This document shows, one piece after another, positions 14,340-15,369 of a stretch of 25,224 nucleotides of DNA (positions within the stretch are counted from its first letter, which is position 1; every line of letters starts with the position of its first letter). The stretch is from a virus. The position numbers and the translations under genes were made by a program. The stretch spans positions 1-25,224 of the IMG/VR virus record IMGVR_UViG_3300017922_000009. One strand, given 5' to 3'. A model generated the notes under the pieces. The model had not been told where the DNA came from. It saw nothing but the letters and a program-made list of their open reading frames with translations, and did not search any database.

Positions 14340-14645
14340 CTAGAGCACCACCCCGGGATCTGCCGGGAGGCTTCCTTCCAGAAGGTCGATTCCCGCTGCG
14401 GTTAATTTTGCCAGTGTTCTTTCGACGCCCATCATATCGTCATGCTCTTCCCACACTTTTACATAACCCTTATCGGCCATGTAATCCAAATACCCCTTGA
14501 GTACCGCTGGAGAAGATGGATACTTACGGTCGTTTAGCGTAGTTTCCAAAAGCTCCAGGCTTGCCGGTCCCGGGTATGCGATCTTAAGTATGTGCAAAAT
14601 CTGCCCCCTGGCAATACGCGCTTCATACCTCTCAAGACCTGCCAT
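14340..14645 (-). CDS. Mu gp26-like winged-helix protein
   Basis: This protein of about 101 aa is found next to terS in Mu-like phages. It begins AGLERYEARIARGQILHILK and continues with a helix-turn-helix-like region (SLELLETTLNDRKYPSSPAV, YLDYMADKGYVKVWEE). A wing-like strand pair follows (TLAKLTAAGIDLLEG). The ATG at 14645 lies 8 bases after GGAGG; two earlier in-frame starts are too close to the ribosome site. It overlaps the upstream gene by 14 bases. Its role is not established; DNA binding is inferred from the fold. Confidence 0.8.
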   Translation of the reverse strand: MAGLERYEARIARGQILHILKIAYPGPASLELLETTLNDRKYPSSPAVLKGYLDYMADKGYVKVWEEHDDMMGVERTLAKLTAAGIDLLEGSLPADPGVVL

Positions 14646-14964
14646 GCACATCTCCTCCAATTATTTGGTTTAAACCCTTCGATATTTCACCTATTTCCTT
14701 TGAAATGTTATCCACCTTGTTGTCCAGTGCCGCAATAGCCCTTATAAAATCATCCCGCAGCACATACTGCCTCGGAAGATTTGCTTTCATATCCGCAAAA
14801 TCTCCCTGCAGCTTTTCGATTTTTACATCCTGCTCCTGATGCTTTTCCTTGACCGCCTGCCGTATATCCTTAAGGAAATAGGCTATAATCCCGGCGGCCC
14901 CACACAAAAGGCCGAATAAAATAATCGCTGTTGGCTTGTAAAGTTCTGCCGGCATATCTGGCAT
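14632..14964 (-). CDS. DUF2730-like membrane-anchored coiled-coil protein (Mu gp25-like)
   Basis: This 110-aa protein is the first gene of the late operon. Residues 10-30 form one membrane segment (AIILFGLLCGAAGIIAYFL), followed by a charged coiled coil (RQAVKEKHQEQDVKIEKLQ, LDNKVDNISKEIGEISKGL). The ATG at 14964 has GGAGGGG at 14969-14975, only six bases past the end of the T-run of the upstream terminator. The domain pattern matches DUF2730. A role in lysis or assembly is possible but unknown. Confidence 0.8.
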   Translation of the reverse strand: MPDMPAELYKPTAIILFGLLCGAAGIIAYFLKDIRQAVKEKHQEQDVKIEKLQGDFADMKANLPRQYVLRDDFIRAIAALDNKVDNISKEIGEISKGLNQIIGGDVHGRS

Positions 14965-14980
14965 GCAACCCCTCCACAAA

Positions 14981-15011
14981 TAAAAAAATCCCAGTCCTTA
15001 TGACTGGGATT
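14981..15011 (-). terminator. Rho-independent terminator at the end of the early/middle operon
   Basis: Read leftward, AATCCCAGTC (15011-15002) pairs with GACTGGGATT (14996-14987) in a perfect 10-bp stem with a 5-base loop. A run of seven T follows (14988-14982). It lies 50 bases after the mor stop and only six bases before the ribosome site of the first late gene, so it should stop RNA coming from mor. Confidence 0.88.
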
Positions 15012-15050
15012 CTATAGACATCAAGTATGACTATCAAATAAAGTACTTTA
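15004..15050 (-). promoter_or_regulatory. Candidate Mor-activated late promoter
   Basis: Read leftward there is a perfect 12-bp palindrome TAAAGTACTTTA (15050-15039), TTGATA (15037-15032), a 15-bp spacer, and a -10 box TATAGA (15016-15011). RNA would start near 15005-15004, which puts the palindrome centre close to -40. Mor and C of Mu bind dyads near -40 at promoters lacking a good -35 box. The short spacer here fits activator dependence. The start falls inside the 5' arm of the terminator stem. Confidence 0.6.
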
Positions 15051-15060
15051 GAAATTTACT

Positions 15061-15369
15061 TTACTTTAACCCAAAATCCATGAGGGTTGGACCGGCATCT
15101 TGCTCCGCTAAAATCTGTCGAACCCAAACCTCCGTAAGGCCGTACTTCCTGGCCAACTCCTTGTAGTTATCACCACGGAACTCCTCTTTTATTTTGCTGT
15201 CCCGAACCTTTCTCAAAACCGCGTCCAGCTTGGGAAAATATATTGCCGTGCCGCTAAACTTATCCGCCACTTTTAAGGTGTTTTCCATACCTATCAAATA
15301 CGCCAGGTCGCGGTATGGCTGTGGAAGGTCGGTGGAATCTATCTCATTCATCCATTCGCTTATTTCCAA
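15061..15369 (-). CDS. mor: Mor/C-family transcription activator
   Basis: This 102-aa protein is the middle/late transcription activator. The dimerisation domain reads DLAYLIGMENTLKVADKF followed by SGTAIYFPKLDAVLRK, the typical G-rich turn and YFPK strand of the family. The C-terminal helix-turn-helix is NYKELARKYGLTEVWVRQIL (residues 69-88). TTG 15369 is the likely start, with AAAAGGGG nine bases upstream; ATG 15351 lacks a site. It is the last gene before the terminator and lies next to the palindrome it probably binds. Only one Mor/C gene is visible, so it may replace both Mu proteins. Confidence 0.92.
   Translation of the reverse strand: MEISEWMNEIDSTDLPQPYRDLAYLIGMENTLKVADKFSGTAIYFPKLDAVLRKVRDSKIKEEFRGDNYKELARKYGLTEVWVRQILAEQDAGPTLMDFGLK

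Follow-up and report, generated by a model that had tools for sequence, protein, structure and literature searches.

A putative late promoter nested in the early-operon terminator of a Mu-like phage and its relatives

We propose that the 70 bp between the activator gene mor and the first late gene of a Mu-like phage very probably form a nested terminator–promoter switch, in which early RNA would stop at a hairpin and Mor-driven late RNA would start at the tip of that same hairpin and pass. In particular, comparison of the junction DNA with that of related phages supports a late start inside the terminator, such that late RNA would be without the 5′ arm that read-through RNA from mor would carry. 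At the level of sequence the parts of the element are in place, they are conserved among relatives, and their geometry equals that of Mor at the Mu promoter Pm.

Methods

Relatives were gathered by searching for Mor in viral contigs, phage records and genomes, which gave 97 distinct junction tails; the 46 junctions scored had a Mor match at E up to 1e-20 and a clear terminator by script. A −10 was scored as TAnnnT with at least 4/6 matches to TATAAT, starting 6–20 nt before the loop, this zone having been chosen from the first examples. The controls were 87 further terminators of these loci, in mixed contexts, from which the terminator of Mu mor had been removed. The −10 alignment, made on the −10 only, held 46 rows, and 39 after a 70% identity filter; the hairpins of L006, L008, L014, L023, L059, L060, L064 and L065, which the script had missed, were added to it by eye and stand outside the Fisher tests, and row L107 (wrong strand) was left out of the final DNA alignment. 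For the window, the composite element was defined as a palindrome of at least 8/10, a TAnnnT 31 ± 1 bp from its centre and a terminator loop 8–20 nt after the −10 start.

Results

The window, by which we mean the whole stretch analysed (25,224 nt, positions 1 to 25,224 of record IMGVR_UViG_3300017922_000009), belongs to a Mu-like phage whose hosts are bacteria of the Gram-positive type. Its leftward early genes include homologues of the transposase, AAA ATPase and GemA, as well as mor, and the head and packaging genes come next on the same strand (−), on which all window features given below lie. The last gene of the early operon, mor (15061..15369), encodes a Mor/C-family transcription activator according to both Pfam (PF08765, E 4e-17) and PHROG (late transcriptional activator, E 8e-20). 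From mor towards the late genes one meets, in order, a weak palindrome, a perfect palindrome, TTGATA, TAGAAT, a hairpin, seven T, six bases, GGAGGGG and ATG. The first late Shine–Dalgarno site, GGAGGGG (14969..14975), starts exactly six bases past the T-run, in agreement with the original prediction. The first late gene (14632..14964, probable start ATG 14964) is holin/lipoprotein-like (PHROG 462, E 3e-14), and its homologue is also the first late gene in locus L002 and others.

The hairpin consists of a 5′ arm, AATCCCAGTC together with an extra base at 15012 that forms a G–U pair (15002..15012), the loop ATAAG (14997..15001) and a 3′ arm that includes GACTGGGATT (14986..14996). It adjoins a run of seven T (14982..14988), identified in the sequence and by a terminator scan, the first of which is paired in the stem. 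The 10-bp stem and seven T originally assigned to read-through RNA are found at the same positions, with the G–U pair in addition. Folding gives 11 pairs (10 Watson–Crick and the one G–U) and −17.0 kcal/mol (z −5.2), a stability reached in 0/200 shuffles, and the element has the form of an intrinsic terminator, that is, a stable GC-containing hairpin adjoining a T-run.

The −10 hexamer of the late promoter is best placed at TAGAAT (15009..15014), which runs into the terminator 5′ arm and whose register is conserved in relatives, where the hexamers read TAAAAT, TACAAT, TAGAAT, TACACT or TATCAT. The original prediction had chosen TATAGA, which does occur at 15016–15011; we reject it as the −10, given that L003, L098, L104, L107 and others keep TAnnnT two bases later. 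On the basis of the TAGAAT register and the Mor-dyad geometry, late transcription is predicted to start at the last 5′-arm base or the first loop base (15001..15002). The start had been put at about 15005–15004; its placement within the terminator hairpin stands, and it probably lies 2–3 nt further downstream. This shift strengthens the nesting idea, for the possible stem pairs fall from 3–4 to 0: late RNA from +1 would keep essentially no 5′ arm, with a predicted folding energy of 0.0 kcal/mol, whereas a start at 15005 would leave four pairs and a predicted −2.6 kcal/mol. The originally proposed loss of the 5′ arm from late RNA is supported by the anatomy of the window and by homologous junctions, and it is the 3–4 remaining pairs that have to be given up. 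The −35-like TTGATA (15032..15037) stands 17 bp from the −10, TTGATA-17-TAGAAT matching the sigma-70 consensus at 10/12 positions. The −35 match is 5/6 here and 1–4/6 in most relatives, and, judging from this near-consensus promoter, the window phage may make some late RNA without Mor.

The main palindrome, TAAAGTACTTTA (15039..15050), is a perfect dyad with its centre at 15044.5 and is presumed to be the operator of a Mor dimer. The palindrome had been placed near −40; the dyad is there, and given the TAGAAT register its centre is corrected to about −43.5 from the predicted start, the dyad centre in the aligned junctions lying 31.5 bp upstream of the hexamer's first base, with +1 assumed 12 nt after that base. 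A weaker upstream copy, AAAGTAAATT (15053..15062), is found 13 bp from the main palindrome and overlaps the mor stop codon. The 13-bp tandem spacing recurs in L003, L033, L020, L061, L062, L066 and others, and such a pair may be bound by Mor as two dimers or as a higher-order complex; in relatives the upstream copy is often rAAGTAATTT. We infer the binding of Mor to the palindrome from its position and adjacency. Elsewhere in the window there is no further TAAAGTACTTTA site with 0 or 1 mismatch, and the window's late strand has no second operator with a correctly spaced −10. The composite element occurs once in the window against 0.005 per window in dinucleotide shuffles (200 shuffles); it was framed after the site had been seen, and the comparative data are consequently the stronger test.

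As the original prediction proposed, the junction was compared in related phages, and the layout proved conserved across some 46 homologous junctions. At the 5′ arm of the hairpin, 38/46 junctions carry a −10-like hexamer vs 20/87 control terminators (Fisher p 3e-11, with independence overstated by kinship among the loci), and the requirement of a palindrome at the fixed distance as well leaves 26/46 vs 6/87 (p 5e-10, the loci being related by descent). Since two of the six control matches are the genuine junctions of L002 (Desulfotruncus) and L071, in which an extra gene follows mor, the true contrast is larger. TAnnnT is missing from the tested zone in 8/46 junctions, in at least two of which (L062 and L103) it lies just outside that zone, and BalMu-1 (L021) fits the layout poorly. 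The extra small genes between mor and the nested element span L002:5369-5671 and L071:1794-2069, and in both loci the element still stands directly before the late genes.

Alignment on the −10 only brings out a conserved A at −35/−34 and a conserved T at −29/−28, relative to the hexamer's first T, with an information content of 1.06 bits for A −34 and 0.85 bits for T −28. The dyad in this alignment has its centre 31.5 bp before the hexamer's first T, with the weaker copy 13 bp further upstream; if that T is taken as −12, the dyad centre falls at −43.5, which equals the published position of the Mor dyad in Mu Pm (PMC4287176). In a test blind to the −10, a span of ~84 nt was searched, and 26/43 best palindromes fell 38–53 nt ahead of the loop. 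Two scans of viral contigs with the operator plus −10 pattern, in which mor was ignored, returned 19 loci; mor lies upstream only in L121 and L138, and by inspection these are also the only two of the 19 with a nested hairpin.

Measured from the first loop base, the predicted starts of the 38 scored rows fall between 8 nt upstream and 4 nt downstream. The 5′ arm contains the entire −10 in 17 of these rows and a part of it in 15, while in the other 6 the −10 closely precedes the arm. Predicted hairpin energies average −18.7 kcal/mol for read-through RNA vs −2.6 for late RNA, the window giving −17.4 and 0.0. About a third of the relatives with a −10 in range have their start 5–8 nt inside the arm of a long stem, so that late RNA would retain a small stem-loop, as stable as −11 kcal/mol in L058; being several nt off the T-run and no longer abutting it, this shortened hairpin should terminate poorly. 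Where the −10 is within the stem (TACACT, TATCAT, TATGAT, TACCAT), the 3′ arms vary in step and pairing is kept.

Variants of the arrangement were also seen. In L020, L099 and L114 mor is followed by two hairpins in succession, the first with TATAAT in its 5′ arm and without a T-run, the second with a T-run. In Pasteurella phage AFS-2018a (L038:4600-4680), TATACT runs into a terminator hairpin directly before an amidase gene, Shine–Dalgarno-like bases lie in the 3′ arm, and an ATG stands right past the T-run; this element could be a Gram-negative version that gates translation of read-through RNA too.

Discussion

Phages need their early genes to end and their late genes to wait, and the known solutions are antiterminators, new sigma factors and separate sites. 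For the window phage we suggest that a polymerase of the early operon would copy the whole hairpin and T-run and terminate, so that the late genes would be off while Mor is made. Mor from the early operon would bind the palindrome, or both palindromes, at about −43.5 and help a sigma-70-type polymerase to use TAGAAT, and RNA would initiate at about 15002–15001, the tip of the terminator hairpin. This late RNA, only ~21 nt long at the end of the T-run and with no 5′ arm to pair, would continue without an antiterminator. Polymerases terminating at the hairpin would also cover the late promoter, which would add exclusion for as long as early transcription runs. Within this scheme we infer the exact +1, the dependence on Mor, the efficiency of termination and the covering of the promoter; the separation of early from late expression, and the dispensability of an antiterminator, would both follow from the anatomy.

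The overlap could be read as mere packing, in which a terminator and a promoter of the ordinary kind are placed back to back, with a saving of space and no regulatory meaning. Phage junctions are indeed compact, many of them under 100 nt, and overlap by itself is no proof that early read-through harms the phage; nevertheless we regard this reading as unlikely, considering that nesting is kept in junctions of 100–161 nt and that junction length (69–161 nt) is uncorrelated with the −10-to-loop distance (r = 0.10, that distance being bounded to 7–21 nt by the search zone). Nesting across this range of lengths, without such a correlation, argues against mere crowding. It also speaks against packing that the element is kept whole ahead of the late genes where an extra gene has entered after mor, and that, from one divergent phage to another, the −10 and the stem vary jointly.

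Other phages usually rely on antitermination, which here would call for a late promoter upstream of the hairpin (or for transcription from the early operon itself) and for a phage antiterminator or an attenuation step that lets late RNA through the full terminator. We consider this highly improbable, as the conserved −10 falls at or within the 5′ arm, so that RNA begun there would not contain the full stem, and as Pfam and PHROG both assign the mor product to the Mor activator family; provided that the conserved −10 is used, the predicted start is the hairpin tip and not a site upstream of a complete terminator. Barely credible to us is a palindrome that serves as an autoregulatory or repressor site of mor, with the true late promoter elsewhere. 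The palindrome does stand at the end of mor, where putative Mor binding could block the early polymerase, but its spacing to the −10 is fixed in many divergent loci, the window's late strand has a single copy of it with a −10 at the right spacing, and where an extra gene follows mor its neighbour is the late gene rather than mor.

The nested terminator–promoter switch that we favour has its closest known counterparts in phage Mu. Like the present junction, Mu Pm has an activator of this family, a dyad (that of Mor, centred at −43.5) and a −10 (PMC4287176); most members have a weak −35 or none, but the window has its near-consensus TTGATA. In Mu, however, Mor drives a middle operon making C, and C activates the late promoters, whereas here the late genes directly follow mor. 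A search for Pm in Mu by dyad plus −10 geometry gave no convincing site; directly after mor, Mu (L067:676-699) has a terminator-like hairpin, AAAGCCGG-TTAAT-CCGGCTTTTTTT. The C-activated late promoters of Mu (Plys, PI, PP and Pmom) resemble the late promoter proposed here in having a Mor-related activator and a dyad upstream of the −10 (PMC4461284; PMC4287176), but there are several of them in Mu and one such site on the window's late strand. An ordinary operon junction, with a terminator followed by a promoter, likewise ends one operon and begins the next; the difference is that bases are shared here, the 5′ arm containing or abutting the −10 and the predicted +1 lying at the hairpin tip. In the fold-back inhibition of IS10/Tn10, read-through RNA bears an inverted-repeat arm that disables expression, and transcripts from the promoter of the element itself begin within the repeat and lack that arm. 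The likeness lies in the read-through RNA being disabled by an arm that the element's own RNA does not carry; fold-back inhibition acts on translation, whereas the block predicted here is transcription termination.

We found no earlier description, among the open-access papers searched, of an overlapping terminator and promoter, or of Mu-like Mor late promoters with terminators, and we rate the candidate promoter-in-terminator switch as known parts newly combined, lineage-wide and in dozens of related phages. In Gram-positive genetics it would serve as a compact design for an insulated promoter, and it makes precise predictions for cultured relatives, namely Faecalibacterium phage Mushu and the prophage of Desulfotruncus alcoholivorax DSM 16058.

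Finally, the layout has been conserved although the sequences have diverged strongly, which suggests selection for the nesting itself. It is quite possible, and we put this forward more tentatively than the proposal for the window phage, that Mu-like phages of Gram-positive-type bacteria share the switch as a lineage, one 70-bp element acting as both early terminator and activator-dependent late promoter. Early transcription would then neither enter the late genes nor leave the promoter uncovered, and the two states would be mutually exclusive without an antiterminator, a repressor or an alternative sigma factor. If this is true, early and late expression in these phages would be separated by the geometry of one hairpin.
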